DNA of 64,000 nt from a virus, in IMG/VR virus record IMGVR_UViG_3300036830_000184, positions 1 through 64,000 of that record. The stretch is one strand, 5' to 3'. The position numbers and the translations under genes were made by a program. The notes beneath the pieces were generated by a model, which made no database searches, was not told the DNA's origin, and saw only the letters and a list, made by a program, of their open reading frames with translations. Positions 6,955-63,188 of the stretch are shown one piece after another (the first letter of the stretch is position 1; every line of letters begins with the position of its first letter).

Positions 6955-7558
6955 GCCGGCCCCGCCAGTCAGGACAAGCCGCCGCCGCCCTACCTCACCC
7001 GGCCTGCCGACCGGGCCTCGCCAGTCCATCCGCACGATCCCACACCTTGCAGAACCTGCCGGGCGTTGCCTCGCCAGTGTTCCTCGCCTCGATGGACCTG
7101 GCCTCGCCCGCCTTGCCTAACCGTGCCGCACCGCCCCTTGTGACGCCCAGCCTGCGGCGCGATGCCTTACCAAGGATAGCCGCGCCAGGAAAAACCTTGC
7201 CCGCGTTGCCGTGAAGAGCGGAGCCGCCCACCCGGACCTAACCCGCGTAGCCGTTCCAGACCTAACCTCGCCATGAAAAACCAAGCCTGCCGCGCCTCAA
7301 GCAACCTCGCCAGTGCCGCCTTGGGCTCCTTGCTTGGCCACTCGTGCGATGCCTGCCTCGCCGCGCCACGTGTTGCGTTGCCTGGACGGGCCTTAAACAC
7401 CGGGCCTCGCCTGCCTCACCACCCGGTGCCCAGACGCCCTCGCCACTCCTCGCCTGCCTCGCGAGGAAATCCACACGTTGCCGTCGTCGCCACGCCGCAC
7501 CTGCCTCGCAGCGCCCAACCCAGCGTGAGTCACCTGGACAACGTCGCCCTGCCTGCCA
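6955..7558 (-). repeat. Non-coding GGCAGGC-type array 1 (G-rich strand is minus)
   Basis: About 600 bases with no convincing gene. The plus strand is packed with short related words (CCTCGCC, CCTGCC, TTGCC, GCCTTGCC) at irregular spacing of roughly 8-25 bases. On the minus strand these read GGCGAGG, GGCAGG and GGCAA, the sense of the neighbouring minus-strand genes. An exact 12-mer GCCTCGCCTGCC at 7404 is the complement of GGCAGGCGAGGC, which occurs three times in the array near 10 kb. Open frames here exist only because GC-rich sequence has few stops. Confidence 0.6.
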
Positions 7559-8164
7559 CTACTCGCCCGCCCGAATGGGTGGGATATCAAGGCTCCGGCC
7601 CGGTGGGCGCTTCGGACCCTGCTTTCGGGGACCCGCACCGCCAGCGCCGCCACCGCTACGTGGACCCCGAGGCCGTTTGGGTGCTGCGCCCGGACCTGGC
7701 TGCGGTCCCGGTCCAACACCCGGACCCGGACCCGGTGGAACCGTGACCACACCGTCAACCGCCTGCCAGACAAACACCAGTTCCTCCAGGTGCTGGTATT
7801 TGAGCCGTATCCGCTCAAGATCGCGCAGGGCATCCATCAACGCGATCTTGCGCAGGTTCGGGATCTTCATCACGTCGGTGATCTGGCGGTAGCCGCCGCC
7901 ATCCACCCGATCAATCGAGAGGGAGATGACCTGCGGCGAGCCGTCCGCGTAAGTAATATGCAACGTAATCAACTGCCGTATTTGTTGCAGCCGCCACGAC
8001 TCTGCCGCCTGCCGGTTGTCCCATTCGAGGGCCGAATAGAGTGCGGATGCCTTATGCGCCCGTGCCCATTCGAGCGCTTCCCTTGGATACAAAATCTTGT
8101 CAGGCGACTGAGTTTGTAGCGCCAATAACTCTTCGCGGATCGTGTGTTGAAGCCTCGACGCCAC
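7559..8164 (-). CDS. Unknown protein with Pro/Gly-rich C-terminal tail
   Basis: 201 residues. Residues 1-140 look like an ordinary folded alpha/beta domain; the last 60 are a low-complexity PGPGPG-type tail rich in Pro, Gly and Arg that grades into the array downstream. Translation starts at GTG, supported by AGGGGA just upstream; no ATG fits. It sits between two stretches of array. The tail could be partly array sequence captured by the gene. Function unknown. Confidence 0.65.
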   Translation of the reverse strand: MASRLQHTIREELLALQTQSPDKILYPREALEWARAHKASALYSALEWDNRQAAESWRLQQIRQLITLHITYADGSPQVISLSIDRVDGGGYRQITDVMKIPNLRKIALMDALRDLERIRLKYQHLEELVFVWQAVDGVVTVPPGPGPGVGPGPQPGPGAAPKRPRGPRSGGGAGGAGPRKQGPKRPPGRSLDIPPIRAGE

Positions 8165-8495
8165 TTTGTTCCCCTTTGTTGCCTGCCACGCCCCACCGAA
8201 CCAGGTGATGCCCTGCCTACGTCACCCAACCTGCCATGCCATGCCGATCCGGGCCGGAAGCTGATTAGCCGCGCCAAAGAAAGCGCCACCTGCCCAGCCC
8301 CCCTTACGGAGCGTAGCCGTGATGAACCATGGTTCGCCCGCGCCGCCTCGATATGCCAGGACAGTCCTCGCCTACGTTGCCGTTGGGTGCCTGCCATGCC
8401 GCTCCAGGTTAGACGTTGCGACACCACGCCTGGCGTTGCCCGCCATGCCAGTATTTGCGGAGCGAGGAGACACCTCGCCACGCCTGCCAAAAGCC
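8165..8495 (-). repeat. Non-coding GGCAGGC-type array 2
   Basis: About 330 bases between two minus-strand genes, made of the same short words as the preceding array (CTGCCATGCC, GTTGCC, CCATGCC on plus). A 12-base palindrome GAACCATGGTTC begins near 8323. I see no gene or clear promoter. If the flanking genes are co-transcribed, the array lies inside their mRNA. Confidence 0.5.
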
Positions 8496-9434
8496 TCAGT
8501 ATTTGAGCACCTTGAACTCGCCCCAGCCGCAGCCGGCGCTCATCTTGCTATCGGGCCGGCCCTCGCCGACGCCAACCTGCTGGCCCGCTCGTGCCAATAA
8601 GTTAACGACATCGTTCGCCGAGAACTGGTCGCCGTCCCACTTCAGGATCAGTTGCGCTTGCCAGCCATCGGCGAACATCGGCCGGGCGCGCAGGTCAATG
8701 CCGCCGTTGGCGTTGCGGCCGGGGCGGATGTCGCAGCGCGGTTCGCCCTTGGTGATCCGGACCAGACCGGTGCCCTGTTCATCGAAGCCATCGGCCATGA
8801 CGAACAGCGACATTTTGGCGATTGTCATTTTGAAACCCACCGTGCGGCAAGCCGAAATCAGTGCGTTTCTGAAAGCAGACGCGGGAATGCCGTCCCAGCC
8901 TTCTATCGCTCGGTGTCTGGCGTTCTCATAGTTCTCGTCAAAGTCGCGGGCCTGGCGCGTCTTGCCCTTGCGGCTTTGGCTGCCGGCTTCCTGGGTTGCG
9001 CGGATGGTGTTCTGCACCTTCTGGCTGAACTTATGCAGCACCAAGGGGGTGGTTCCCTCGATCGTGACGCGGGCGAGCTCGAACTTCGGCGGTGAGATAG
9101 AGACGCGCGCTTGTGGCTTCGTTTTGTCGTCGGGATCGGTCAACCCAAGGTCGCGGAGATCGGACCGGATCTCGACCGGGGGCCGGCGCTGGCCGGGGAT
9201 CGGCGCTTTGACCCGCGCGATGATCTCTTGTTCATCCGGGGTAACCCGCCTCGCCGCCGGGCTACCGCGCCGCTTCGGCGGTAGATAGTCGGTATCGGGC
9301 TGCAAGGTCTCATCGACGGTGACGGCAACTACCTTCCGGGGCCGGCCGCGCTTCTTCGGCTGTTGGACCAATAGCGCGCCTTCGTCTGGGTGCTCGCCGC
9401 TTGAGTAAGAATTCCCACGTGATTTCACAGCCAT
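8496..9434 (-). CDS. Conserved phage protein with N-terminal AT-hook-like motif
   Basis: 312 residues from an ATG preceded by GGGGAG; a longer upstream frame exists but lacks a ribosome-binding site. Residues about 25-35 contain KKRGRPRKVV, an AT-hook-like minor-groove motif. The C-terminal 190 residues resemble a widespread uncharacterised phage family, with an IEGTTPLVLHKFS strand, a GIPASAFRNALISACR helix and a terminal GVGEGRP...GWGEFKV segment. That ending is loosely reminiscent of RAMP/Cas7-like folds, but I would not claim homology. Transcribed away from the small plus-strand gene at 9549 across a 114-base AT-richer gap. Confidence 0.7.
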   Translation of the reverse strand: MAVKSRGNSYSSGEHPDEGALLVQQPKKRGRPRKVVAVTVDETLQPDTDYLPPKRRGSPAARRVTPDEQEIIARVKAPIPGQRRPPVEIRSDLRDLGLTDPDDKTKPQARVSISPPKFELARVTIEGTTPLVLHKFSQKVQNTIRATQEAGSQSRKGKTRQARDFDENYENARHRAIEGWDGIPASAFRNALISACRTVGFKMTIAKMSLFVMADGFDEQGTGLVRITKGEPRCDIRPGRNANGGIDLRARPMFADGWQAQLILKWDGDQFSANDVVNLLARAGQQVGVGEGRPDSKMSAGCGWGEFKVLKY

Positions 9435-9548
9435 GGCCAGGTGCTCCCCTTGTTGCCATTTTTCGGTGCCAATCAAACCAATTTTGGTTGACGAAAAATA
9501 GCAAACCATGCTCACGTTTGGGCGGTCAAGCGAATATAGAAAATAGTC
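9435..9548. promoter_or_regulatory. Divergent regulatory region with inverted repeats
   Basis: AT-rich gap between divergent genes. It holds AACCAATTTTGGTT, a perfect dyad near 9476, overlapping TGGTTGACGAAAAA at 9483, after which AAACCA closes a second TGGT/ACCA dyad. A very similar element (TGGTTGACGAAAAA, then GACCATT) occurs at 26153 before another plus-strand gene. A shared operator or promoter element is the simplest reading; I cannot place a convincing -10 box. Confidence 0.4.
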
Positions 9549-9746
9549 ATGCAAATACGCAAAAGTGAGAATGTTGTTATTCGGCTGCACAAACACGAGT
9601 TGGATGTCGTTGTTTTGGCGGCGGCGAGTAAATTCCTATCGCCAACAGCGTGGGTGCGGCATCTGGTTTTGTCGGAGAGTTTCAAAGTGAAGGAGGAGCT
9701 AACGGAAAAGGCAAAACGGACTGACGGTGTCCCTTTGGCATCGTGA
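9549..9746 (+). CDS. Small ribbon-helix-helix-like DNA-binding protein
   Basis: 65 residues: a short beta-like VVIRLHKHE segment followed by two helices with the A...S...W.R pattern seen in ribbon-helix-helix proteins of the antitoxin/MobC type. Such proteins bind DNA as dimers and often repress their own promoter. Its divergent position over the dyads at 9470-9510 fits autoregulation. No toxin-like partner is adjacent. Family call is moderate. Confidence 0.6.
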   Translation: MQIRKSENVVIRLHKHELDVVVLAAASKFLSPTAWVRHLVLSESFKVKEELTEKAKRTDGVPLAS

Positions 9747-9940
9747 AGGCCCTCCATCGGCATGGCAGGTAGGGACCGGCACCGTTCGCAACGAGTGATC
9801 GGCATGGCAGGCTCGGTTCCGATTTCAACTCACGGCAGGGTTTGAGTGGGCACCGCAGGTCGGGCGCCGGAGGTTTGGCGCCGGAGGAAAGGTTCGGCGG
9901 GCTTGGGTGTCGAGGTCTGGCTTCGACGGCGCGATAGGCT

Positions 9941-10000
9941 TGGCGGGCTAGGCATGGCCAGGGCGACGAGGCGCGGTGACTTAGGTTTGGCGGGCGAGGC
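9941..10000 (+). repeat. 60-bp imperfect direct repeat, copy A
   Basis: Matches 10141-10200 at 51 of 60 positions by eye, without gaps. Core words shared are GGCGACGAGG, GCGGTGACT and GGCGAGGC. The copies are exactly 200 bases apart, not a multiple of three. Confidence 0.8.
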
Positions 10001-10140
10001 AATTCGTGGCCTGGGTCGGTCGTGCATCGATAGGTGAGGTGAGGCAGGTGAGGGCGGCGTCCAAGGTAGGGCGTGCGCGGTGAAGCAACGCAGGCGAGGG
10101 GCACCAAGGCATCGCTCGATGACGATGGCCCCCTATGGCA

Positions 10141-10200
10141 TGGCAGGCGAGGCATGGTCACGGCGACGAGGTGCGGTGACTCGGGTCTGGCAGGCGAGGC
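10141..10200 (+). repeat. 60-bp imperfect direct repeat, copy B
   Basis: Second copy of the segment at 9941. It begins and ends with the 12-mer GGCAGGCGAGGC, as if the array word bounds a larger duplicated unit. Confidence 0.8.
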
Positions 10201-10534
10201 GCACTTGGCAGCGATGGTCCGACATGACGGGGCCGGCGGGGCACAGTGGGGATCGACGGGGCAACGCACCGAGAGGCGCGGCAGGCGAGGCGGAACAAGG
10301 TCGATACTGGCTTCTATCGGCTTGACTCGGCAGGCTCCCAAGAACGCGGCGGTCGGAGACAACCGGCCCGTCATGGCAGGCTAGGATTGGCACGGCCCGG
10401 CAACGCCAAACTTGGCGAGGCGTCGGGCTTACGGTGGCGGGGGATCTTCGGGTCTCTCGCCTTTCCTTTGTCCCCGATGGTAATGTTGAGCCGCCGGCCA
10501 GCAGCCCGGTCCCCCAACCATCCGGGACTCTGCC

Positions 10535-11446
10535 ATGTCGATCGGCCAGCGTTACTACACACCCAACCCATTCGAGATCGACGCCAACGGCGTGCCACTC
10601 GCGTTTGCGCAGTTGTTCTTCTATGCAACCGGGACGAACACGCCGCAGGACACCTTCTCTGATGTCGGGTTGACGGTCGCCAACGCAAACCCGGTGCGTG
10701 CGGACGCCAACGGCCGGTTTGGCTCGATCTTTCTGGCCACAACCAACGGTTACGCGGTCTCATTGTGGACGGCGCCGACCACCGACAACCCCGGTGGGGT
10801 CCAGGTCTGGACGGAAGACCCGGTTGGCCCGGCGGCGGGTGGGGCGGTCAGCAATGTCGTCGGGATCATCGGCGAGATCCGCCAGTTCGCCGGCATCGCG
10901 GCCTCGATCCCGAGCGGCTGGTATCAGTGCTATGGCCAGGCGGTCAGCCGCACAACCTACGCGGCAGCCTTCGCGGCGCTCGGCACAACCTGGGGCGCTG
11001 GCGATAGCTCGACCACGTTCAACCTGCCCGATCTACGCGGCCGGGTGACCGCTGGCCTCGACAACATGGGCGGTTCGGCGGCCGATCGGATCACCGCTGG
11101 GGTGTCGGGGATCGCCGGCACCACGCTTGGCGGGTCCGGTGGCGATCAGGCGCAGCAAGAGCACACCCACACCATCAATGATGGTGGGCACACCCATGCG
11201 CTTACCGATCCGGGGCACGTTCATACCGTCAATGTTGCCACCGCGGTGACGGGCGGATCGGCCGCGGGCCTATCGGCGACCGATGCGGCACCGGCCGTGG
11301 TGCCGTTCGGGGTCAACACCGCGACGACCGGGATCACTATCGCCTCGGCGACGACCGGGATCACGAACAGCAACACCGGGGCCGGCGCGAGCCAGAACGT
11401 GCAGCCGACATCGATGGTCTACAGCATTATTTATCTAGGAGCGTAA
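10535..11446 (+). CDS. Tail fibre / phage tail-collar domain protein
   Basis: 303 residues. The first 110 residues form a beta-rich N-terminal domain of the sort that attaches fibres. From about residue 112 the Phage Tail Collar domain follows: IGEIRQFAG, PSGWYQCYGQAVSR, then FNLPDLRGRVTAG. It ends with a His-rich HTHTINDGGHTHALTDPGH region and a C-terminal YSIIYLGA typical of this family. Such proteins form the distal fibre or collar that contacts the host surface. The stop overlaps the next start (TAATG), so it heads a four-gene coupled operon. Confidence 0.85.
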   Translation: MSIGQRYYTPNPFEIDANGVPLAFAQLFFYATGTNTPQDTFSDVGLTVANANPVRADANGRFGSIFLATTNGYAVSLWTAPTTDNPGGVQVWTEDPVGPAAGGAVSNVVGIIGEIRQFAGIAASIPSGWYQCYGQAVSRTTYAAAFAALGTTWGAGDSSTTFNLPDLRGRVTAGLDNMGGSAADRITAGVSGIAGTTLGGSGGDQAQQEHTHTINDGGHTHALTDPGHVHTVNVATAVTGGSAAGLSATDAAPAVVPFGVNTATTGITIASATTGITNSNTGAGASQNVQPTSMVYSIIYLGA

Positions 11447-12219
11447 TGACAGCGCCGGTTGCTCCGTTCGGCGGATCTTCAAACCAGAAAGCCAACAGAG
11501 TGCCGGACCCTAACAATGCTTCTCGGTTCAGTTTGGCTGACCCGATGCGGATTTCGATGTGGACTGTCATCGGGTCGGTGTTCGCCTCGGTGCTGACCGC
11601 CGGCATCCTCGGTGGGGCCAGCGGCATCCTCCAGGTCCCGAACCTGATCAATCAGGTGGCGCTTTTGACCGCGTCGCGCGAGCTTGAGAACCACTCCCTG
11701 TCCGCGCTATCGGAGCGCACCCGCAGCGCCGAACTGACGTTGGAAGGATTACAGCGGCAGGTGAACGATATCGCCGCGCGGCAAAATCAGTTCACCGTCC
11801 GGCTGGAAAAGATGGACAGCGAGGAGCGCACCCTCGATGTGGCCACCCAACGCGAGATTTCTGAGTTGGAAGGCCGCAGCAAGGACCGGAGCACCCAGGC
11901 GATCGGGCTGGCCACCAACGCCTCGACGGCGATCAGTGATCTAAATGAACGCCTGAAATCCACGGCCGATGGTCTAAATACCCTGCGCGCCGTCGTTTAT
12001 GACCTGTCCATGCGATCAGGTATGCGACAAAACCAATCCCAGCAAGGCTCTCAACAGCAATCAGCACCCAGGTCATTTGGCTCCCCTTATGATCGCCAGC
12101 ACGACGGCGGTCCCTTCAGCAAGAAGCGCCTAGAGGAAGATGCAGCCGGCCCCGGCGTTGCGACAGCCGCAAGGGCTTCACTTAAAAGCGAGAAGCACGT
12201 TATGGTTGTTTCCCAATGA
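11446..12219 (+). CDS. Membrane-anchored coiled-coil protein, possibly lysis-related
   Basis: 257 residues. A short N-terminal tail is followed by one hydrophobic helix at about 36-62, then a long heptad-like coiled coil (about 70-185) and a polar Gln/Ser-rich tail. That is the architecture of an inner-membrane protein with a periplasmic rod, as in spanin-type lysis proteins, and it is immediately followed by a putative holin. It could equally be a structural fibre chaperone. The topology is visible; the role is inferred from neighbours. Confidence 0.6.
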   Translation: MTAPVAPFGGSSNQKANRVPDPNNASRFSLADPMRISMWTVIGSVFASVLTAGILGGASGILQVPNLINQVALLTASRELENHSLSALSERTRSAELTLEGLQRQVNDIAARQNQFTVRLEKMDSEERTLDVATQREISELEGRSKDRSTQAIGLATNASTAISDLNERLKSTADGLNTLRAVVYDLSMRSGMRQNQSQQGSQQQSAPRSFGSPYDRQHDGGPFSKKRLEEDAAGPGVATAARASLKSEKHVMVVSQ

Positions 12220-12644: not shown

Positions 12645-12817
12645 GGCTGATTATTCTGGTCATCCTGTTGGTGATCGTCTTCGGCGGGGTCGGGGGTTAC
12701 TACGGTCCGGGGTGGTTCGGGGGTGGCCCCGGCTGGCGGCCGGTCTATGGCGGCGGCGGCCTCGGATTGCTCGTCCTGATCCTGCTGATCCTGTGGCTGG
12801 CCGGGGTGCTGCGCTAG
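12641..12817 (+). CDS. DUF3309-like small membrane peptide
   Basis: 58 residues. Two hydrophobic helices (residues 3-19 and 41-57) flank a Gly/Trp/Tyr-rich loop, the pattern of the DUF3309 family: a hydrophobic start, a central GYYGPGWFGGG-like stretch and a closing GLGLLVLILLILWL. Start overlaps the holin stop (ATGA). Function of the family is unknown; the setting suggests an accessory role in lysis or the envelope. The last bases overlap the convergent 62-residue gene. Confidence 0.65.
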   Translation: MRLIILVILLVIVFGGVGGYYGPGWFGGGPGWRPVYGGGGLGLLVLILLILWLAGVLR

Positions 12818-16973: not shown

Positions 16974-17100
16974 GTCAGCGCTCGGGGACGGCCCGAAGAA
17001 CCGCCCCCTTGTCGCTGTTCATGCGATGCGGCGCCGATGGCACCCTGCCATGCAGCGCCTAACCACGCCATCAATACCCTATCGCTCATGGGACCAAACC
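16974..17100 (-). repeat. Short stretch of GGCAGGC-type array
   Basis: 127 bases between two minus-strand genes. Plus-strand words include CACCCTGCCATGC and CCACGCCATC, of the same type as the large arrays. No gene and no clear terminator seen. Confidence 0.4.
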
Positions 17101-22021: not shown

Positions 22022-22234
22022 ATGGCTGATCTATTTGCCGGCGAGCCGGTGCCGCTTGGTGAGCAAATCCGCGAAATCGAACGTGAGCTTGAGACCCGCC
22101 GGGCGGTCTATCCGCGTTGGGTCCAGGCCGGGCGGCTATCCTTTGATGTGGCCAAACGGCGGGTGCTGATCATGGAGGCGGTTCTGGCCGAGTTGAAGGG
22201 CAGGCAGGGCGGGGCGGATCACGGGGCGGTTTGA
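22022..22234 (+). CDS. Conserved small phage protein
   Basis: 70 residues. The pattern EIERELETRRAVYPRWVQAGRL...AKRRVLIMEAVLAEL is common in phages of Gram-negative bacteria; its function is not known. Almost entirely helical. The start is preceded by a G-rich run acting as ribosome-binding site. The 1.4 kb array begins directly after its stop and would form its 3' untranslated region. Confidence 0.7.
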   Translation: MADLFAGEPVPLGEQIREIERELETRRAVYPRWVQAGRLSFDVAKRRVLIMEAVLAELKGRQGGADHGAV

Positions 22235-22640
22235 TCCCGGCACGGCTGCGCAGGCAGTCCAACATCCAGGCGGGAATACCCGCCGTCACGGCTGGTTTGA
22301 GGTGGATGGCGACCCGCGGCAACGCAAGGCCAGGGGTGGCGCTGCCGGTGTGGTCTATCTGTTAGTGGCTAGGCGCGATGGGCATGGCAGGTCACGCAGG
22401 GCAGGTGTGTTCCGGATTGGTCTTCGCTTTGCAACGCCAGGCTGATCGGGGCAACGCAGGCTGCCCGAGGCGAGGTTGAGCGAGGCACCGAGCGCCAGGC
22501 AGGTAAGGTGGGCGAGGCACCGCGCTGCGCATCGAGGTAAATCCTTGCGTGGCAGGCTATTCGAGGCACGTGCGGCTACGCCATCCGAGGCGTCGCTAGG
22601 TTAAGCGAGGCGGGTTTGGTTGGTGGGGCGGGGCTTCTCT

Positions 22641-22724
22641 GGGTTCGCTCGGCGGGTGCGGCGAGGATATCAGGGCTGCGTTGGGTTCGCTTGGCGGGTT
22701 TGGTGAGGATGACGGGGCTGCGTT
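22641..22724 (+). repeat. 42-bp imperfect tandem duplication
   Basis: Two adjacent units, 22641-22682 and 22683-22724, each beginning GGGTTCGCT and ending with GGGGCTGCGTT or the like. Differences are mostly transitions. The unit is longer than the ordinary array words. Confidence 0.75.
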
Positions 22725-23280
22725 GGCGGGGTAGCGATGGCCGGCATTGCTCGGAAAGTCATCGCACCGCTTATCTGGGCGTCGCAGGCTGGGTCGCTTT
22801 AGGCGCGAAGAGCTAGGGACGGCTAGGCACGGCAGGCGTGGATAGGCGTGATTGGCTTGGCAACGGAGGCAAGGCAGGCGTGGAACGGTTGGCTCTTCGT
22901 GGTTCCGGACGTGAGGTGTTTCATTTCGCGGTGAGGCAGGCTGATCGGACCGGGGCATCGTAGGCGTGGCGGGTGACGTTGACCGTCGCGAGTTTGGGCG
23001 ACGCATGGTGAGGCCGGGCAGGTCGGGTGTCGCGACCTTGCGATGGAAAGGACTGGTTTGGCAGGTCCGGCAACGTTGGCAACGCCTCGTAGGCTAGGCA
23101 GGTTCGGTTGGTGGCGTGGGCAACGCAGCGACCGTAGGTTATGGCGGGCGAGGCAGGGTGTCGCTTCTCCTGTCCAGGCCGGAAAGGCAGGCTAGGCATG
23201 GCCGAATTTGGCCGGGCTTCACTGGGTTTGGCTGGGCCGGCAACGTTGGCGTCTCAACGCTGGGTCAGGCATGGCTCGCA

Positions 23281-23340
23281 GGCTAATCGGCACTTCGGTG
23301 CCCAATACCCACGAGGGATCAACCCTCGGTCACGGCAGGC
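23281..23340 (+). ncRNA. Structured element copy 1: UUCG hairpin plus second hairpin
   Basis: Hairpin one is GGCAC-TTCG-GTGCC (23289-23302), a canonical cUUCGg tetraloop. Hairpin two is CGAGGG, five-base loop, CCCTCG (23312-23328). Compared with the second copy, the outermost pair of hairpin two changes C-G to T-A, a compensatory change that argues for an RNA structure. Confidence 0.6.
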
Positions 23341-23469
23341 ACGGCCACGCGACTCCGCTTCTGGCCAGTCAAGGTGAGGCAGGCGTGGTTTGGATGGCAG
23401 CGCCACGCTCCGCAAGGAACGGCAGGCAGGGCATCGCAACGCGCTTCGGGGTAAGGATCTGGCCAGGCA

Positions 23470-23529
23470 GGCAATCGGCACTTCGGTGCCCAACACCCAT
23501 GAGGGGATCAACCCTCAGTCACGGCAGGC
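23470..23529 (+). ncRNA. Structured element copy 2
   Basis: Same order as copy 1, 189 bases away. The UUCG hairpin is unchanged (23477-23490); hairpin two is TGAGGG, six-base loop, CCCTCA (23500-23517). Flanks AATCGG and TCACGGCAGGC are also conserved. Confidence 0.6.
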
Positions 23530-23678
23530 AAGGCGTGGCAGGGGCGGCGACGCGTTTCGCGGCCTGAACTGGCCCGGCTAGGGGCTGACAGGGGAGAGTC
23601 CGGGGTCCAACTCGGACCCTCCCCATCCCGCCTATAATTTTGTGCGGCCTTCACCGCAGTTAACGATTGCGGCTCGGC

Positions 23679-25919
23679 TCACGGCAACAATGCGGTGTCG
23701 GCTCTGACCTTCGCCAAGGCCGTCACGGCGCCCGTCAGCACGCCATTGATAGCATCGATCTCGGCCTGAACCGAAGCCACGGTCACGCCGGTCGGGGGTG
23801 GCGGAGGCGGCGGAGGTGGCGTGACGCCGATCGGGTTGGCCGCAGCGGTGGCCGAGATCAGCCCGGCAATCAGTTGGCCGTAGGGTGTGATCTGGCCGGC
23901 ATCGGTGACCATCTGGTCGCCTTGCTCGTCCGGATTGAAGGCCCACGCGCAATAGGACATGCCGGAGGCGCCCACCACCTGGCAAACTTGCGTCCCGTTG
24001 GCATCGACCGCACCGCCGGTTGTGGAGTTGCCGAACTCGCCGATCACCACGGGCACCAGACCATCCAGCGAGGTGATCGATTGCGCGCCGGCCACACCGG
24101 AGGCACCGCCGACCGAGCCTTGCAGGCCAGCCTTGATCGTCGGGATATCGGTGGAGAAGTTGGTTACCCACCCATAGTAGTGAAGGTCCCAACAAATGTT
24201 ATACATGGTTGCATAGAGCGCGGGCGTCATCGGCCCTTTGCCGTCGTAACCCGTCGCCTGGCTGCCCACGAGGCCCGGATTGCCGCCGGAGGGTTCCTCC
24301 ATGAACACCAGCGCAAAGCTGCCGGCGCCCCGGATGGCGTCATAGATCGCCTTTTCCTGCGTCGCGATGCCGGCCAGATTGTTGCCGTTGCCGGGCTCGT
24401 TGAAGGTGCCGAAGGCCACGTAGGGGTTGGCCTTGTAGGCCGCCGCCATGGCCGCATACCACTTGACCTCGGCGGCAAGCTGGCTCCCGGTGAGCGGCGG
24501 CGCGCTGATCCCGGTGTGATCCTCGAAGATCATCAGGGTCTGTTGCGCGGTCGCCCATTGGATGAAGGCGGCGTAGGTCGACGGGTCAGAATAGGCCCGA
24601 TTGGCAATCCGCAGGATGCGTGTGCCGGGGAACATCGTGCCGGTCTTGGCGCTGACCGTGTCCATCTGGTCTTGGTTGAGGTTGAAGCCGCCGGCCGCGA
24701 GGACCGACCCATCCGGGCGCAGGATCTTGGCACCGGAGACCTTGAAGAAGCCGGCTGGCGTCGGGTTGGTGCCGGGTGGGGGCGGGGGCGGCGTCACGCC
24801 ACCGGGGAGTGGGCTCGTCGTGGTGGCACCGGACCAGCTTGACCCGAGCCACGAATACCAACTCCCGGCCGTGTTCTGTTGCCAGATGACGCCCTTCTCC
24901 AGGGCCATGAGGGTGACGTTTTTGGTCGTCGTGTCGTTGACGTTGTTGCGCGCGATGGTGCCGGCCGGGGTGATCGTCCAGACATTGCCGGTGGCGTCGG
25001 TGATCGAGCCGGTGCCGGGGGTGATGCGGGTGTCGTCGGGCGAGGGTGTGATGGTCACGGGTGGGGTGACTCCTGTTCCAGATGCGGTCTGCGCCGCCGC
25101 CCAATCCCAGATCGGCTTGCCGGCGGGGAGCGGGCAGTAACTGTCCCAGACATCATGGCCCTTGTTCGGATCGAACAGTAGCCGGAAGGCGGAGGTGCCC
25201 GCCTGCGCACCGGCTGGCCCGCTGACCGTGGGGGCGCCGTTGGCGAAGTGCGCCCACACGGCCAGGTCCCAATTCGGCGGACTGGTGGTGTCACCGGCGC
25301 CATGCACGGCAAAGATCGGCACGCCGGTGATGGTCTCGAACTGCGCCGCGGTCGGCCCCACGCCGTAGCCGTTGCGCTCGATCACGCCGGCCATGGGAAT
25401 GAAGGCGCAGAAGGTCCGGCTGCGGGTGCCGTTTTTGGTGTTGTGATCCAGCGCCTGCGCCCATGAGCCGATGCCGCCGAGCGAGGCCCCGCCGACCACG
25501 AGGGCATCCGGGTCGGCCCCGAGATTGGTCACGGCATACTGCGCACAGAGCGCGACCGAGTCCTCGTTGGCGTCGTCGTTGGGCGGGGTCCAGCCGCCGA
25601 AGTTCTGCTCCACGTCGCTGCCGGTGGTCTGATCGCAGGCCGGAACCAAGATCAACCAGGGGTAGGCGCCCATGAAGGCGGAGTTGTTGAACCACGCATC
25701 GGCCTGGCAGGCTTGGGGTAGCGCGTCATCACCATTATACGCCCGGTTGCCTTCTTCGTCCTCATGCTCCCAGACGAGGCAGCGATACTTGCCACCTGCA
25801 ACCCATCCCGGAGGAGCCAGCACGTAGAAGATCATCTTCTGCCCGGACGGCAGGGTGGGACCCGTCGGGAGTTGGAAGCGGGTCCACTTGCCCGGAACGA
25901 GTGAGGTGGGATTGGTCAT
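23679..25919 (-). CDS. Bifunctional esterase / GH5-like glycoside hydrolase
   Basis: 746 residues from an ATG with GGGGAG ten bases upstream. Residues about 1-285 are an alpha/beta-hydrolase of the PHB-depolymerase/feruloyl-esterase type: nucleophile S146 in GGASLGG, with D210 (HGAGD) and H255 (KGHDVWD) as likely partners. A small Trp-rich module (about 305-365; GNVWTIT, SWYSWLGSSW) resembles a carbohydrate-binding unit. After a poly-Pro linker, residues about 395-670 form a GH5-like cellulase domain with acid/base E508 (FNEP) and nucleophile E628 (GEFG). No signal peptide. A virion-borne or lysis-released polysaccharide depolymerase is likely. Confidence 0.8.
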   Translation of the reverse strand: MTNPTSLVPGKWTRFQLPTGPTLPSGQKMIFYVLAPPGWVAGGKYRCLVWEHEDEEGNRAYNGDDALPQACQADAWFNNSAFMGAYPWLILVPACDQTTGSDVEQNFGGWTPPNDDANEDSVALCAQYAVTNLGADPDALVVGGASLGGIGSWAQALDHNTKNGTRSRTFCAFIPMAGVIERNGYGVGPTAAQFETITGVPIFAVHGAGDTTSPPNWDLAVWAHFANGAPTVSGPAGAQAGTSAFRLLFDPNKGHDVWDSYCPLPAGKPIWDWAAAQTASGTGVTPPVTITPSPDDTRITPGTGSITDATGNVWTITPAGTIARNNVNDTTTKNVTLMALEKGVIWQQNTAGSWYSWLGSSWSGATTTSPLPGGVTPPPPPPGTNPTPAGFFKVSGAKILRPDGSVLAAGGFNLNQDQMDTVSAKTGTMFPGTRILRIANRAYSDPSTYAAFIQWATAQQTLMIFEDHTGISAPPLTGSQLAAEVKWYAAMAAAYKANPYVAFGTFNEPGNGNNLAGIATQEKAIYDAIRGAGSFALVFMEEPSGGNPGLVGSQATGYDGKGPMTPALYATMYNICWDLHYYGWVTNFSTDIPTIKAGLQGSVGGASGVAGAQSITSLDGLVPVVIGEFGNSTTGGAVDANGTQVCQVVGASGMSYCAWAFNPDEQGDQMVTDAGQITPYGQLIAGLISATAAANPIGVTPPPPPPPPPTGVTVASVQAEIDAINGVLTGAVTALAKVRADTALLP

Positions 25920-26219
25920 AAAGCGCACGCTCCCCGAAAAGTGAGGCGCATAGCGCAAAGCCAGGACAACCGCCAGTGAAAGGGTGGGAAAGTTACGCTA
26001 CCGCCGCCGAAGAGGCCAAATTCACTCAGGCATGGGAGAGGACTCGGCCTTGCCTTCGGCGGCGACAGGTGCCCACCATCAGGAGCGGGGTGATCGGACC
26101 GTGAAATCCGATAACCAAGCCATCGTTTCGACTGCACCGAAAGAGGCTTAATGGTTGACGAAAAACGTATAGACCATTCTGAAGTCCCGCAAGTCCCCGC
26201 GAAGTCACGGGTGGTTTAG
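25920..26219. promoter_or_regulatory. Intergenic region with long hairpin and shared TTGACG element
   Basis: 300 bases between divergent genes. A strong hairpin spans 26003-26063: GCCGCCGAAG pairs with CTTCGGCGGC, continued by AGGCC/GGCCT with a three-base bulge. At 26153 TGGTTGACGAAAAA and GACCATT form the dyad also seen at 9483. A 39-codon frame (26031-26150, beginning MGEDSALPS) lies across the hairpin; I do not count it as a gene. Confidence 0.4.
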
Positions 26220-43207: not shown

Positions 43208-43667
43208 GGTTTGACCGGCTCGGTGGTTTTGGTCTAGGTGCGGACGGCGGTTCGGGGCACTCTACTTCTGTAGAGGACAGAGTCTGTATCTCGCGTGCGC
43301 GCGTGCGGGGGAGCGTTTCCGCTGGTAAATCGCATAGGGTATCGGGTTTGTTGGGAGTGAGTGGTTGATGGCCCATTGTGTGAGCCACCGACCTTCCAAG
43401 CGGGGCGTTGCCCACGCTTCCCAGCCCAGCCTTGATGAGCGTAGCCTGCCATGAGTGCCGTTCGTCCTCGCGACGGCCGGCGGGTTTGATCCTAAGATTA
43501 GGAACCTCCGGGTCAAGCAGGTGGGCCGATGATCACTTGCGGGAATATCACTCACGTGTGAGAGAGGAGTTCCCTAGACACTCGTCTAGGGCTTGGACGT
43601 TTCCTCCCCGACTTGGGCGTCGGCGCCCTTTGGTTCCGGCGCTCCTTCTTTTTTCTGGGCGTTGGCC
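43208..43667. other. Gene-free stretch with hairpins and some array words
   Basis: 460 bases. Array-type words (GGCGTTGCCC, CAGCCTTGATG, TAGCCTGCCATG) occupy about 43380-43460, C-rich on plus. Perfect hairpins are CTCTAC-TTCT-GTAGAG near 43260, TCCTA-AGAT-TAGGA near 43492, and CCCTAGAC-ACTC-GTCTAGGG at 43572-43591. The last lies about 75 bases before the next plus-strand gene and may be an operator or leader structure. Confidence 0.4.
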
Positions 43668-43982: not shown

Positions 43983-44784
43983 CTGGCGAGGGGCGCGTCC
44001 TCGCCTAGCCAACCAAGAGCCGCCTGCGTTGCCGTTCCTGGCGAAGAGACACCAAACCAGTCCGTGCCTGCGTTGCAACGCCCGGCCTAGTTCCGCCACC
44101 CCGAGCCAGTCCACGCCTGCCAAGAGATACCTCGCCAGTCGACCCAACCTTAATCGGCCTGCCGAGCGACGCCCTGCCAATCTTACGTTGCCCTACCTGC
44201 CGAGCGGCGCCCCACCCCGCCGGGCCATTTCAACCTTGGTCTGCCTAGCCTGCCGCGCGAGCCGGACCTAGCCGAGAGTATCCGAGCCAACCTTGCCTGC
44301 CGAGCCCTAGTCAACCTAACGCGCCATCGACCCCGAACCTAACCTGCCGGGCCAAGATCCACCCATCACGCCGGGCCATCGTGGCCATCGTGGCCAAACC
44401 TGCCACCGCCGCCACTCCCCGCCACTCTCACGATACGAGTCGGGCCATCCAGGCGAAGCCTGCCCAATCATGCCGCACCGACCCAAATGCGCGATGCTCT
44501 ACGTCGCCACGCCTGCCGGGCCAGGATCTGCGGTGCCAAGCGGGTGTCACCTCACCATTCGACGCGACGCCTGCGGGACCGATCCGCGATCTGATTGGCC
44601 AGAACGATCCGCCCGCTCCCAGCCTGCCTCACCCTGATCGACGCGGCCTCGCGAAACCACCGAAACCGCCAATGCCAAACCTGCCGCGCGGTGGGCTGCG
44701 ACGCCCCTGAAGCGTTGCTGATCCTGCCTTTCCATGACGCCCGCCGTCTCGCGAGGGGAGGCGGTATCGAGTATAAGATGTCTT
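43983..44784 (-). repeat. Non-coding GGCAGGC-type array 5 (G-rich strand is minus)
   Basis: About 800 bases of CCTGCC, GTTGCC, GCCGAGC and CATGCCGC words with no credible gene. Unlike array 4, the G-rich strand is opposite to both flanking genes, but agrees with the HNH gene at 43207. Near the end, GTATAAGATG lies just before the next start and may be a -10 box. Confidence 0.6.
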
Positions 44785-56750: not shown

Positions 56751-56770
56751 CTCCGGCTGTATTGAAAAAG

Positions 56771-57346: not shown

Positions 57347-57718
57347 CTCGGCTCCTGCAAGGTGGCCGGATAATCCTGCGCCACCTTGCCGAGTCGCACC
57401 GAGCCAGTGACTCGGAGCCTAGAGATGCTACGCGTTGCCCGCCGAGCGATGCGGCTCGTTGAGGCACGAAGCACACCTTGCCTAGCCTGCCCTGCCTTAG
57501 CCGGCCCTGCCGGACCCACCTGGAGCCGCCGGGATGTGCCTGCCCTACCAGTCGTACGGAGCCGTGAAGTGCTCCGATGCGCGTTACCTGCCGCGCACAG
57601 CAGTGCCGAGTGATGCGAAGGTCCGCCGACGAAGCGATCCTTGCCTGCCATGCCATTGTCCCGCCGATAGGGACGGTCTAAAGCCTATGGCCGCCCACCA
57701 ATCGGGGAAAATCAATTT
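57347..57718 (-). repeat. Non-coding GGCAGGC-type array 6 (G-rich strand is minus)
   Basis: About 370 bases upstream of the lysozyme gene, with plus-strand words CCTTGCCTAGCCTGCC, CTGCCTTAGCC and TTGCCTGCCATGCC. One hairpin, CCGAGTC/GACTCGG with a 13-base loop, lies near 57387. The AT-rich end (57705-57740) precedes the next plus-strand gene. Confidence 0.55.
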
Positions 57719-58090: not shown

Positions 58091-58179
58091 GCTGCGGTTG
58101 CACAACAGCCCCTGCCTGCATATTCTGCGCCCGACCGCGCGAGCAGCCGGCGTCTCCCATTCTATGGAGTGCCCTGCAT

Positions 58180-59097
58180 ATGGCCGCTGGTCAAATCGTT
58201 TACACGCCGCAGCATGTTATTCTGCCGCAAGGGGCGCCGGGCGATGCGCAGGGGCCGGACATCGCCCCCAACAGCGCGATCATGGGGTTTGCCGTTGCTG
58301 ACCCACGGCCGCCGTATGCTCCCAATGACACCCACGGCGCGATCAAGGCGTGGTTTGCCAACACGTCCTGCAAGGTCGTCGGTCAGGCTCCGGCGACCGC
58401 AGCGACCGCCAACATGGCCGCACTCCAAGTTGCCGCCAGCGGCACACCGTTCACCTTGGTCAGTTCGACCGGAGCCGGGATCACCCTGCTGGCGACCGCG
58501 TTCCTGGCTTTGGGCAGCGGCAACACCATACCAGTCGGGTCGCTCGCGATCGATGGCAACCCGATTTACACCACGTTTGGCCAAGGCTTCCATAGCGGCT
58601 TCTACGCGCCGAGCGGTGGCCTGGCGCGGGCCGTGTCGGTCACCGCCGCATCCAGCGCGACGGGTGGCGTGGTCACCATCCGAGGGGCGGACTATTACGG
58701 CTATCCGATGGCGGAAGAGATCACCGCCGTGGCCGCTTCAACGGTGAATGGCCTCAAAGCGTTCAAGTGGGTGTTCTCGGCGACGCCGGGCTTCACGGAT
58801 GGCACCCACAACTATTCGATCGGCACTGCCGATGTTTATGGGCTCAACCTGCGGGCCGACAATTTCGCCGACATCGTCTCGTTCTTCGATGACGTGGTGC
58901 TGGCAAAGGCTGCTTTCACCGCCGCCGTATCCACCACCGCAACGGCCACCACGGGCGATGTGCGCGGCACCCTCAGCACCGGCGTAACCGCCAATGGCAC
59001 CAAGGTGCTGGCGGCCTTTGTGCGGCCCACCCTGACGATGATGGCCAACGCCTCGCTTTCGGTCGGGATGTTCGGCGTCGCCCAGTTCAACGAGTAA
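58180..59097 (+). CDS. Beta-rich virion structural protein
   Basis: 305 residues, rich in Ala, Thr, Gly and Val with alternating beta pattern. GGVVTIRGADYYGYPMAEEI and the final TMMANASLSVGMFGVAQFNE suggest a tail or head-surface protein. No named family. First of seven contiguous late genes leading to the tail factors. Confidence 0.6.
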   Translation: MAAGQIVYTPQHVILPQGAPGDAQGPDIAPNSAIMGFAVADPRPPYAPNDTHGAIKAWFANTSCKVVGQAPATAATANMAALQVAASGTPFTLVSSTGAGITLLATAFLALGSGNTIPVGSLAIDGNPIYTTFGQGFHSGFYAPSGGLARAVSVTAASSATGGVVTIRGADYYGYPMAEEITAVAASTVNGLKAFKWVFSATPGFTDGTHNYSIGTADVYGLNLRADNFADIVSFFDDVVLAKAAFTAAVSTTATATTGDVRGTLSTGVTANGTKVLAAFVRPTLTMMANASLSVGMFGVAQFNE

Positions 59098-59106
59098 GGC
59101 GCACCC

Positions 59107-59571
59107 ATGGCCGGCGATGTCGTCACCAGCACGTTGCTCGAAAACGGTCCGAGTCGTTGGGCCTACTGCTTCACGGGCTATTCCGATGGCACCGGTGAGA
59201 GCGGGGTCGTAAAGGTCGACGCCTCATCGGACGGCGATCTTGGCGTGGTGGTCCAGGGCCAGACCTTCTATCCAGGGGTCCATCTGGTCGTGACGGGCTT
59301 GTGGTATTGCGTCTCGAACATGGTCTTGGAGATGCTTTGGCAAGCTGACTCCAGCACCGACTTTCTGGTGTTGCAGGGCTTCGGCCGAATGGACTTTCGC
59401 GACAGCAAGGGCGGCATCCAGGGGCTGATCAACCCCGCCGCGACGGGTGCGACCGGGTCGATCCTGTTTACGACCACGTTCGCGGGTCCTGGGGCCGTGG
59501 GACCGCCGGTTACTCAGCCTGGCTCCTACTCGATCATCATGCAGGGCCTGAAGGGCATTCCCCAATCGTGA
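59107..59571 (+). CDS. Virion structural protein
   Basis: 154 residues, beta-rich (GPSRWAYCFTGYSDGTGESG, VVVQGQTFYPGVHLVVTGLW). Size and context resemble small beta-sandwich proteins found between capsid and tail-completion genes. Function unassigned. Confidence 0.6.
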   Translation: MAGDVVTSTLLENGPSRWAYCFTGYSDGTGESGVVKVDASSDGDLGVVVQGQTFYPGVHLVVTGLWYCVSNMVLEMLWQADSSTDFLVLQGFGRMDFRDSKGGIQGLINPAATGATGSILFTTTFAGPGAVGPPVTQPGSYSIIMQGLKGIPQS

Positions 59572-59580
59572 GGGAGCCCG

Positions 59581-60132
59581 ATGGCAGATGACCGGCACTA
59601 CGTAGGCGGTCAGTGGTATTTCATTGACGATAGGTCGGGCTTTAAGGTTAGGTCATCCAAGGCCCGGCTGCGCTGGGATGGGGTAATGACCAGCGGGTCG
59701 CACTGGGACCCGCGCCAGCCGCAAGACATGGTTCAAGGTGTGCGCGACGAACAAGCGCCGCCATGGACCCGCGACCGCCAGCGCAATCAGTTCACCGTCG
59801 TGGCCTCTTACGTGACCGCCTTCTCAGGCGCCGGCAGTCTGTCCATGGAGATCCAGGACAGCCAGGGCTTCAGCCTCGGCGACATCTGCCAAGTGCCTTT
59901 GGACAATACCGGCAACATCTTCCAGTTCCGGATTTCCGCCATTTCCGGAAATGTCATTTCGTGGGCCTCTCCGGGATTGCCGGGCACGGTCGGCGGCAGC
60001 TTCGGCGATCCCCTGGAAAACCAAGTGTTCGACATCACAGCCTCGCAGCCTGCCAATGTCAGCGATCTGGTCAATCAGGACGGCACAGTGATCACCGATA
60101 GCACCGGGACGCCGGTGTTGGTCCAGACCTGA
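59581..60132 (+). CDS. Structural protein with degenerate zinc-ribbon N-terminus
   Basis: 183 residues. The first 65 (QWYFIDDRSGFKVRSSKARL, then a WDPRQPQDMVQG segment) follow a well-known phage zinc-ribbon protein pattern, but the expected cysteine pairs are replaced by Asp, Ser and His. The remainder is beta-rich (GFSLGDICQVPLDNTGNIFQ). Start preceded by GAGGGAG. Confidence 0.6.
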   Translation: MADDRHYVGGQWYFIDDRSGFKVRSSKARLRWDGVMTSGSHWDPRQPQDMVQGVRDEQAPPWTRDRQRNQFTVVASYVTAFSGAGSLSMEIQDSQGFSLGDICQVPLDNTGNIFQFRISAISGNVISWASPGLPGTVGGSFGDPLENQVFDITASQPANVSDLVNQDGTVITDSTGTPVLVQT

Positions 60133-61076
60133 TGGCCAGCACGTATATCACCGACTACCTCGAACGCGGCCTGGCGGCGGCTCGTCCGGCCACGCCACCG
60201 GTCGGGACCGCCTTGGCGCTGTATGAGGCAACCGACACCGGCGCGTTGTCGATGTGGGACGGCAGCCAGTGGCTCAACGTGGTGGTGTCGATCACCGCCG
60301 GCACCGGATTGAGCGGCGGCACGATCAACTCTGAAGGGACCATCGCGCTCGCGGCCATCGCCTCGCATGACGTGTTGGCCAATACCACCTCGGGCAGCGC
60401 CGCACCGACCGCGACGACGGTGACTGCTTTGCTCGATGCCGCCTTGGGCTCGACGCAGGGCGATGTGCTGTATCGCTCCGCGTCTGCCTGGACCGTGTTG
60501 GCTCCGGGCACTTCGGGACAGGTGCTGCAATCAGGCGGCGCGGCGGCGAACCCATCCTGGCACACGCCGGCCACCGGCAGCGTCACCGAGGTCGATACCG
60601 GGACCGGCCTCTCGGGCGGCCCGATCACCAGCAGCGGCACGATCAATGCCGATTGGGATGGTGGGGTTGTCACCGCGCTCGGGTCCGGGCTCTCATTGAG
60701 CGGCGGCACGCTCGATATCGAAGCCTCGGAGAAGATCCGCACCATCCCGTTCCCGATCATCGGCGTTCCGTCCGACGCGCAGCAGATGAACGTGACGCTC
60801 ACCCAAGGCGGCACCCTGTTGGCCAATGGCGGCACGGCTCAAGCCTACGTCCCAACCAACCCGACAGCGACCGAAACGCTCGAAATCAACACCGTCCATA
60901 ATGGCACCATCACCACCCAAGGGACGATCAGCATCAACACCAGCGGTGTGGTCACCTTCCCGACCTTCACGGCCGTGACGATGGCGGCCGGCGACACCAT
61001 CCAATTGCTCAACCAAGCCACGGCTGATGCCACCTTCGCGAACGCCTGTATCAGCCTGCAATATCAGGTGACGTGA
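60132..61076 (+). CDS. Fibre-like virion protein with repeats
   Basis: 314 residues of low-complexity beta repeats. GTGLSGGTINSEGTI recurs as GTGLSGGPITSSGTI, and QGDVLYRSASAWTVLAPGTS is a motif widespread in phage tail fibres. It could be a trimeric fibre or needle. Stop is two bases before the TTG of the next gene. Confidence 0.7.
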   Translation: MASTYITDYLERGLAAARPATPPVGTALALYEATDTGALSMWDGSQWLNVVVSITAGTGLSGGTINSEGTIALAAIASHDVLANTTSGSAAPTATTVTALLDAALGSTQGDVLYRSASAWTVLAPGTSGQVLQSGGAAANPSWHTPATGSVTEVDTGTGLSGGPITSSGTINADWDGGVVTALGSGLSLSGGTLDIEASEKIRTIPFPIIGVPSDAQQMNVTLTQGGTLLANGGTAQAYVPTNPTATETLEINTVHNGTITTQGTISINTSGVVTFPTFTAVTMAAGDTIQLLNQATADATFANACISLQYQVT

Positions 61077-61077
61077 C

Positions 61078-61986
61078 TTGGCACACCGCTATTGGCGGGT
61101 GTGGATCACCCAAAGCCAGACCAACGGCATCGCCTCGATCGCCGAAATCACCATGGCCGCGTCCTATGGCGGACCCAATCAGATCGGCTCGGGCACAGCT
61201 TCCGCATCCGGCGTCTACTCATCCCCGGCCAACGATCCCGGCAAAGCCTGTGACGGCGACACCGCGACCTGTTGGGCGGTTGTCCAGAATTGGGCATCCT
61301 CCGCGCCGTCATGGTGGGAATACGACTTCGGCTCGGGGAACGATGTCGGGGTCCTGGAACTGAAGATCACCGCCCAAAGCGGCAGCGCCGACTTCGCGCC
61401 CTACACCCTCACCCAATTCCTGCTGCAATATTCCGACGACGACGCCACCTGGATCACCGAGGCCGGCTTTACCAGCCAAACCGCCTGGACGGCCGGATCG
61501 CAGCAGACCTTTCAGGTGCCGGTGGCAGCAGTGGGCTCGGCGCACCGCTACTGGCGCTACGATATGTATTCGAACGCCGCCACCAATACCGCGGCGATCT
61601 CCGAAACCACGATGGCATCCACCAAGGGCGGCAGCAGTCTGTTCGGTGGTGGCACGCCCTACGCTTCCAGCGCGGCCAATCCCGCCGGCAATGCCTGTGA
61701 TGGCAATATCGCGACGTTCTGGGCAGCCAACAACGGCTTCTTCCCCGCGTGGTGGGCCTACGATTTCGGCTCCGGTGTGAAGGTGGTCGAAGCCACCATG
61801 GCTCTCAACACCGGCATCACCAACAACGGCCCGACGACCTTCTCGATCGACTACAGCGACGACAACGTTGCGTGGCTTCCGGCCGGCTCGTTCACCGCCT
61901 CGGCCTACGTCGGCACCGTCGTGCAGACCTTCGATCTATCGGTCCCGTCGACCGGGCAAAAATTCCTCTCCTGCGGGATGATCTGA
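61078..61986 (+). CDS. Virion protein with two discoidin-like carbohydrate-binding domains
   Basis: 302 residues from a TTG start immediately after the previous stop. Two tandem copies of a discoidin (F5/8 type C)-like fold: HRYWRVWITQSQTNG ... WWEYDFGSGNDV and HRYWRYDMYSNAAT ... WWAYDFGSGVKV. Such domains bind sugars, so this may be a receptor-binding or adhesion protein. Stop overlaps the next start (TGATG). Confidence 0.75.
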   Translation: MAHRYWRVWITQSQTNGIASIAEITMAASYGGPNQIGSGTASASGVYSSPANDPGKACDGDTATCWAVVQNWASSAPSWWEYDFGSGNDVGVLELKITAQSGSADFAPYTLTQFLLQYSDDDATWITEAGFTSQTAWTAGSQQTFQVPVAAVGSAHRYWRYDMYSNAATNTAAISETTMASTKGGSSLFGGGTPYASSAANPAGNACDGNIATFWAANNGFFPAWWAYDFGSGVKVVEATMALNTGITNNGPTTFSIDYSDDNVAWLPAGSFTASAYVGTVVQTFDLSVPSTGQKFLSCGMI

Positions 61987-62993
61987 TGGCAGTTTTAACT
62001 ACCAGCGGTAGCTACACCTTCAGCCAAAGCGCCGTGGAGATCATCACCGCCGCGCTGCGGATTTGCCAGGTTGTGAACGAGGAAGAAACCCCAACCGGGG
62101 CACAACTGACCAACGCGCTCGCCGCGCTCAATGCGATGACAAAGGGTTGGCAGGTCTCCGGCATCCACCTGTGGGCCGAGGAAGAGGCGATCCTGTTCCC
62201 GCAGCCGAACCAACCGCTCTATTATATCGGGAGCGGCAGCACCGACCACGCGACGCTTTATTCCTCGCTGGCGATGACCACCTTGGCGAGCACCGCGCTG
62301 GCCGCCGCGACCACGCTGGTTTTGGAGTCAGCCAGCGGCTTCGTGGTCGGCAACACTATCGGGGTCCAACTCGACTCCGGCAGCAACTTTTGGACAACCA
62401 TCACCACGGTGAGCGGAACCACGATCGGTCTTACCGCCCCCCTGCCCAGCCAGGCGACGGCGGGCACGACCCAGATGATCTTCAGCTATGACGTGCCATT
62501 GGTCCGGCCGCTCCGCGTCTATACGGGCCGGCGGTTTATCTACAACAGCAGGATCGAGAACCCGATGATCATGCTGTCCCGGACCGATTACCAGAACCTG
62601 CCGAACAAATTCAATCAGGGGACGATAACCCAATTCTTCTTCGACCCTCAGACGGGAACAAGCCAGGGCGCCTACACCGCCCCCCTCGCGCAGGCCAACC
62701 TCTGGCCCTCCCCGATCGACAACCAATCGGGCTTCCGGTTCACGGCCCAACGCCCGCTGCAAGACTTCGCAAACTTGGCCAACTTGCCGGACTTGCCGGT
62801 CGAATGGTCCGTCGCGTTGAAGTGGAACCTGGCCCAAGAGATCGGTCCGGAGCTATCGACGCCGATGGATCAGATGACCTTGATCGGGAAAATGGCGGGA
62901 ACTTGGTTCGAACGCATCCAGCAATGGGATCGGGAACCCGAGGCCGTGCTATTTGGGGTTGCACACGAGCCGGGCTACCACACCGGCGTGTAG
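61986..62993 (+). CDS. P22 gp4-like head-completion / tail accessory protein
   Basis: 335 residues. The N-terminal 75 (ITAALRICQVVNEEETPTGA, ALNAMTKGWQVSGIHLW, then NQPLYYIG) match the P22 gp4-like pattern, the first factor that binds the portal after packaging. A beta insertion (about 85-170) is phage-specific, and the C-terminus (VEWSVALKWNLAQEIGPEL) is typical. Followed by the gp10-like gene, as in P22-type tails. Confidence 0.8.
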   Translation: MAVLTTSGSYTFSQSAVEIITAALRICQVVNEEETPTGAQLTNALAALNAMTKGWQVSGIHLWAEEEAILFPQPNQPLYYIGSGSTDHATLYSSLAMTTLASTALAAATTLVLESASGFVVGNTIGVQLDSGSNFWTTITTVSGTTIGLTAPLPSQATAGTTQMIFSYDVPLVRPLRVYTGRRFIYNSRIENPMIMLSRTDYQNLPNKFNQGTITQFFFDPQTGTSQGAYTAPLAQANLWPSPIDNQSGFRFTAQRPLQDFANLANLPDLPVEWSVALKWNLAQEIGPELSTPMDQMTLIGKMAGTWFERIQQWDREPEAVLFGVAHEPGYHTGV

Positions 62994-63188
62994 TCGGCCT
63001 ATGGTTTGCTCGTCCTTTTAGGACATTGGCATGGTGTGGCAGGCTTGGCGGGGCGTCGCGCGGTTTCGCGAGGCCCGGTGGGGCTAGAACCACAAGGCGG
63101 CGGATCGGGCAACCCTTCCGCCGCATTGCCAGCCTAAGCTATAGAGAGAGCAGGCCCAGCAGCGCCCACACCCCAGGATGGCGGCGCT
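62994..63188 (+). repeat. Gap with short array stretch and CTATAGAGAGAG leader
   Basis: 195 bases. The left part holds array words on plus (GGCATGGTGTGGCAGGC, TTGGCGGGGCG, GCGAGGC). At about 63140 lies CTATAGAGAGAGCAGG, the third copy of a word also found before the genes at 45639 and 55842. It is about 40 bases before the next start, too far to be only a ribosome-binding site. Confidence 0.4.

Follow-up and report, generated by a model that had tools for sequence, protein, structure and literature searches.

Scattered G-rich blocks in a phage genome as probable guide-RNA arrays of a VIPR system

The gene-free, G-rich blocks scattered over a 64,000-nucleotide stretch of viral DNA (positions 1 to 64,000 of the 71,876-base record IMGVR_UViG_3300036830_000184; hereafter the window) are very probably guide-RNA arrays of a phage-encoded VIPR system. 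According to a 2026 preprint (PMC13142463), VIPR comprises Vipr, a phage-encoded, CRISPR-related RAMP protein, and guide RNAs called vrRNAs, which silence competing phages. In that account Vipr is an ancestral RAMP of ~20 kDa, and the vrRNAs consist of 9-16 YNNGG repeats (GGY/NN), with the DNA being read as NN with a one-base skip. Our literature search found no other paper naming VIPR, and the mechanism discussed below is taken from this one preprint. We establish here the grammar of the arrays and their tie to a Vipr-family protein; support for one-base-skip targets comes only from a relative.

Grammar and strand polarity of the arrays

On the G-rich strand, each block reads as pentamers GG(C/T)NN interrupted by tetramers GGCA. 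The vrRNAs of phage SUSP1, evident in KT454805, follow the same grammar. The six main blocks, whose borders were refined by a log-odds scan of the record (Table 1), total ~4.1 kb, hold no genes, and lie where the original prediction, made from the letters of the window alone, had placed them. GGCAGG occurs 62 times on their G-rich strand, against 1.3 expected from the remainder of the window. In all six, the periodicity index exceeded that of 500 of 500 dinucleotide-preserving shuffles (z 6.6 to 12); the index was 0.09-0.13 in the blocks versus a maximum of 0.055 in other 500-nt windows of the record. Identity and GG-GG autocorrelation peaked at 5, 9/10, 14, 19, 24, 28/29 and 33/34 nt.

The predicted one-strand polarity was borne out for every block: when a log-odds model trained on five blocks was used to score the sixth, the G-rich strand was positive and the opposite strand strongly negative. 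At the vipr locus the G-rich strand is indeed the sense of neighboring genes, whereas at the remote blocks this is uncertain because the gene calls are crude. The smaller patches that had been proposed fared unevenly, since 43380-43460 is periodic, 62994-63100 is weak, and 16974-17100 is indistinguishable from chance. A further small patch lies at 69411-69552, past the end of the window. The spacing, which had been described as too irregular for tandem repeats, in fact follows a step of 4-5 nt (mean 4.75 nt), made of a 5-nt step with 4-nt punctuation that is plain in relatives. Simple tandem repeats and CRISPR were themselves considered and rejected, only short internal duplications being found. 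One of these, within block 9754-10425, is a near-duplicated 64-nt stretch (9937-10000 and 10137-10200) in which unit borders are kept; by eye, some of the differences are C/T swaps at Y positions, and these would be silent in the VIPR code.

Similar arrays are widespread. A 16-base word from the window retrieved 77 stretches in IMG/VR, most of them array-bearing and many far cleaner, with runs such as GGCAT GGCGC GGCAC and an occasional tetramer GGCA. A strict pattern gave at least 120 matches in IMG/VR and 37 stretches from many lineages among 84,980 prokaryote genomes, including the isolates Mycobacterium szulgai, Bradyrhizobium lablabi and Aureimonas ureilytica, although a few of the 37 are probably ordinary glycine-rich coding sequence. 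Altogether, 196 fetched viral or prokaryotic stretches bear arrays, usually cleaner than those of the window. The NN dinucleotides are hypervariable, with all 16 kinds occurring, and a blastn search of the array DNA against the phage collection gave no match, as expected for such repeats. The tetramers, by contrast with NN, are nearly uniform (1577 of 1763 are GGCA). In relatives, successive GGCA are mostly 49, 54, 44, 59, 39 or 64 nt apart, that is, 4 + 5n with n = 7-12, whereas random placement of tetramers would yield mostly short gaps. The resulting guide length in relatives is mostly 7-12 pentamers between GGCA, the figure given for VIPR being 9-16 repeats; in the window, the division into guides is ambiguous.

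Two of the fetched loci deserve mention in their own right. In one (L031, ~7020-7520), the array contains about a dozen near-exact 14-nt copies of GGCACGGCTAGGCA, and therefore arrays can also grow by short tandem duplication. In mycobacteriophage Donkeykong (L231 4561-4947; NC_051648.1 36870-37256), gp48, annotated as a hypothetical protein, overlies a GGCNN array, and its neighbor gp49 is a Vipr-family protein; gp48 is probably a guide array rather than a gene.

Table 1. Coordinates of the vipr and candidate vap genes, the putative vrRNA arrays and associated elements in the window
Feature	Position	Strand	Description
Putative vrRNA array	6955-7557	-	Downstream of candidate vap gene; log-odds 302 bits, period index z 10.9
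Candidate vap (accessory) gene	7559-8164	-	201 aa, phrog_15946; predicted winged-helix-like N-terminal part, disordered basic tail
Putative vrRNA array	8152-8488	-	Between vipr and candidate vap; log-odds 177 bits, z 7.0
vipr gene	8496-9596	-	366-aa open reading frame; residues ~165-366 form the RAMP-like Vipr domain (phrog_4652); true start uncertain
Putative vrRNA array	9754-10425	+	Divergent from vipr; log-odds 317 bits, z 9.9
Intrinsic-terminator-like hairpin	10436-10471	+	3' end of array 9754-10425; fold z -2.1; from a consensus scan whose count is not above shuffles
Putative remote vrRNA array, longest	22201-23599	+	Ends in strong hairpin; log-odds 700 bits, z 12.0
Possible single short guide	43380-43460	-	z 5.2 but log-odds only 12
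Putative remote vrRNA array	43983-44746	-	log-odds 374 bits, z 10.8
Putative remote vrRNA array, most degenerate block	57354-57700	-	log-odds 174 bits, z 6.6
Weak array-like patch	63028-63087	+	log-odds 32 bits, z 2.6

A Vipr-family protein tied to the arrays

Three array blocks, vipr and the candidate vap gene are clustered within 6955-10425, where long intergenic, array-holding stretches flank vipr, in a record that carries terminase, portal and capsid genes. Over its C-terminal ~200 residues, the vipr open reading frame falls into phrog_4652, a family filed under 'unknown function'. A profile of this Vipr family, built from 46 relatives, matched one PDB sequence, 36pp 'SUSP1 Vipr protein' (E 6.7e-9), as well as the SUSP1 gene product in the phage record (E 2e-13), and hhalign aligned the Vipr family with the SUSP1 family across 62 C-terminal columns, the glycine-rich loop among them, at 97.7% probability. 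The AF2 model (pLDDT 88) resembles Csm3-type RAMPs (Foldseek E 2.6e-6; VIA-align Z 10.8 over ~150 residues), and the predicted fold is thus that of a Csm3/Cas7 RAMP. The record contains exactly one copy of a Vipr-family gene. Its N-terminal extension carries an AT-hook-like KKRGRPRK, and part of the extension is matched in some relatives.

The 201-aa protein encoded beside vipr was tried as Vipr and rejected because it is the 366-aa open reading frame that holds the RAMP-like domain. As a candidate Vap, its family (phrog_15946) is present in 145 of the 196 array loci, and its model gives weak winged-helix-like fold matches.

The pairing of arrays with Vipr extends well beyond the window. The profile matched 152 of the 196 array-bearing stretches, and it matched 33 of the 34 in which the array lies >3.5 kb from both stretch ends. 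Moreover, in all 152 stretches with a match, vipr and the array nearest to it share a strand. The same Vipr family occurs in Donkeykong, Gordonia phage Ecliptus and cyanophage Cy-LDV1 (E 6e-59, 5e-46 and 1e-105, respectively), and these three, like the M. szulgai prophage, have GGCA-punctuated arrays beside vipr. Unlike the window, however, these four have clean pentamers with a mean period of 4.9 nt, and Donkeykong, checked over its entire record, has just one array locus.

Among the closest known systems is the type II VIPR of SUSP1 (PMC13142463; PDB 36pp), which shares a homologous RAMP protein of ~200 residues, GGY/NN repeats, carriage by a phage, and a gene order in which arrays surround vipr and a small second gene comes next. 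The arrays of the window differ in being long, GGCA-punctuated, more degenerate and partly far from vipr, and the Vipr of the window differs in its N-terminal extension. 'Staggered arrays' VIPR, which the preprint mentions (PMC13142463, fig. S18), is possibly the same kind of long, many-guide array. With type III CRISPR-Cas (Csm3/Cas7) the window shares the predicted Vipr fold, whereas its guide letters are spaced dinucleotides; no regular repeat-spacer family was found in the array regions, and none of the proteins searched, a subset of the genes, belonged to a Cas family. Hammerhead ribozymes, which lie between the guides in one kind of VIPR array, were not found either: Rfam gave no match in the window, in the longest array at a lax threshold, or, hammerheads included, in ten array-rich loci.

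These results favor one of the roles suggested originally, a family of non-coding RNAs, in that the grammar is that of vrRNAs and is tied to Vipr. The suggestion of binding sites for a phage protein was half right, and at the RNA level only, because a phage protein would bind such RNAs. There is no support for recombination tracts or for REP-like selfish sequence, given that no alignable copies are shared between blocks save short internal duplications and that arrays pair so regularly with Vipr.

By analogy with the published system, the G-rich strand of each block would be transcribed into RNA. Vipr (RAMP) subunits would hold the GGY triplets, leaving the intervening NN pairs free to pair with double-stranded DNA, and the target would be read as NNxNNx..., each step passing over one base, most often the wobble base of a codon. 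The GGCA tetramers are most likely the borders of successive guides of ~7-12 units each, and the remote arrays may serve the lone Vipr in trans. Repression by the complex would fall on genes of rival phages or prophages, and this may be the role of the guides in the window.

Target decoding and alternative explanations

The arrays of the window depart from others in several respects. Their mean period is 4.75 nt, compared with 4.80-4.95 in 148 of 150 other array sets (peak 4.90), and GGY is present in 41-62% of their units (41-49% in the three remote blocks, 54-62% beside vipr), compared with a median of 85%, although both differences are exaggerated by a comparison set mostly picked by pentamer patterns, so that the cleanness of other arrays is partly a matter of selection. 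Vipr relatives sampled regardless of arrays comprise 3 loci only, of which two have arrays, with a period of 4.90-4.95. Within the window, GG pair correlations are higher at 14 than at 15 and at 19 than at 20, which together with the 4.75-nt period indicates that extra 4-nt steps are frequent. The pyrimidine is nevertheless retained in 82-88% of units. Three large blocks, not all on one strand, are ~12, 34 and 48 kb away from vipr, whereas in 17 other VIPR phage records (48-158 kb) the array words, among the positions listed, are confined to one locus of a few kb, save rare single hits. Thus, the system itself is already known, and this instance is unusual by its scattered large blocks, its 4.75-nt period and its degenerate consensus.

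One explanation of these departures is that the VIPR genes are active but that the remote and most degenerate blocks (22201-23599, 43983-44746 and 57354-57700) are decaying relics that guide nothing. The low GGY completeness of these blocks and the single-locus arrays of the 17 other records speak for it. However, their period remains strong (z 6.6-12), the pyrimidine is kept in 82-86% of their units, and a 4.75-nt period with almost the same degeneracy is also seen in the arrays adjacent to vipr. We consider relics unlikely, though deserving of serious attention. Alternatively, the window might encode a VIPR variant with another reading step, in which 4-nt steps every three to four units would make targets a mixture of dinucleotides and single bases, and arrays over 50 kb on both strands would serve one Vipr in trans; we hold this to be doubtful.

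It is quite improbable that the blocks act as DNA, whether as protein-binding arrays (centromere-like, packaging or nucleoid) or as G-rich structure-forming DNA, with Vipr merely a neighbor. In favor of such a role, GG recurring at 5-nt intervals on one strand could give rise to R-loops or two-tetrad quadruplexes. On the other hand, NN is hypervariable while GGY is constant, the arrays keep to the strand of the RAMP protein gene in every locus where both were found, and the grammar is that of vrRNAs for which the preprint reports experimental evidence (PMC13142463). That the blocks are low-complexity or misread protein-coding sequence is scarcely credible: open frames of 60-230 aa do traverse them and Donkeykong gp48 was annotated as a protein over such an array, but the mixed 5-nt and 4-nt steps keep shifting the frame, the period is fivefold rather than threefold, and unrelated phages share the grammar and not the NN letters.

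The guides of the M. szulgai prophage are delimited by tetramers, and the first was converted by the one-base-skip rule into a pattern that was sought, allowing at most 2 mismatches, in 148 Mycobacterium genomes. Its two best hits (19/20) lie in two genomes, in genes for large serine recombinases; with their Pfam Resolvase and Recombinase domains, these are enzymes of the phage-integrase type. Both matches begin at a codon boundary, and in each the skip falls on the wobble base. Three bases distinguish the two targets, and each is a skipped wobble base. The same pattern read backwards, as a control, gave one hit. The next guide gave a single hit (21/24), in a gene for an excisionase-like helix-turn-helix protein; here too the match is in codon phase and skips the wobble base. 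The matched guide terminates at a GGCA tetramer. These targets lend modest, though independent, support to the published one-base-skip rule in the Vipr family of the window.

Several observations weigh against a VIPR system in the window. No target was found for its own guides in the searches of IMG/VR, related phages and other fetched loci, and two more M. szulgai guides lacked a convincing one. The likeness to SUSP1 Vipr is limited to ~60 C-terminal residues, and the candidate vap profile has no match to SUSP1 vap1, leaving the second gene with no detectable relation to it. A structured 3' tail of the type II VIPR kind was not recognized, the sole structured repeat being a two-hairpin element in the longest block. 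Finally, the arrays are degenerate, with their extra 4-nt steps.

The target searches can be itemized briefly. An 11-unit guide of the window had no exact match in IMG/VR, nor did two Donkeykong guides. A 9-unit guide matched 9 contigs at 5 distinct sites in IMG/VR, which we judged to be chance; against related phages and the other loci, guides of the window showed no excess over shuffled guides save for the fetched matches of this 9-unit guide. All clean guides against the 2.1 Mb of fetched loci gave no excess at skips of 0, 1 or 2.

Genomic setting and significance

The arrays do not occupy a conserved place in related phages, where the original prediction had proposed to look for one. Among 74 loci of portal-protein relatives, no array lies within 10 kb of the portal gene, and Vipr is found in 1 of 32 records of these relatives; VIPR is therefore accessory cargo, and in the window it resembles an accessory module acquired by transfer. 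One portal relative (record G175, L333 8119-8506, minus strand) has a clean punctuated array with no Vipr of the window's family detected in the record; this array is perhaps an orphan, or is paired with another Vipr type. Another (record G182, L334 2000-3313) has Vipr and the candidate Vap with no array recognized by the scanner, and the stretch downstream contains scattered GGCA/GGY words, perhaps a very degenerate array.

The structured repeat of the longest block consists of two near-identical elements, 23283-23345 and 23471-23535, 188 nt apart, each with two hairpins, one UUCG and the other GAGGG/CCCTC; no copy was found in any other fetched locus. Convergent with this array, 23679-25958 encodes a 759-aa phage-borne protein with a glycosyl hydrolase family 5 (cellulase) domain. 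A 1422-aa protein at 2486-6754 has a sub-threshold match to the ADP-ribosyltransferase domain of polyvalent proteins (ART-PolyVal).

Taken together, a non-coding oddity that was found blind is linked to an RNA-guided system known from one preprint. The Vipr family of the window is now seen in phages, prophages and metagenome bins of many assigned bacterial lineages, and two unknown families acquire likely functions, phrog_4652 as Vipr and phrog_15946 as candidate Vap. Some annotated phage 'genes' would instead be guide arrays. The GGCA punctuation hints at how long arrays are split into guides, and the decoded integrase-type and excisionase-like targets, from data of our own choosing, fit the one-base-skip rule. 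With their 4.75-nt step, the scattered arrays offer a natural test of the flexibility of the reading code.

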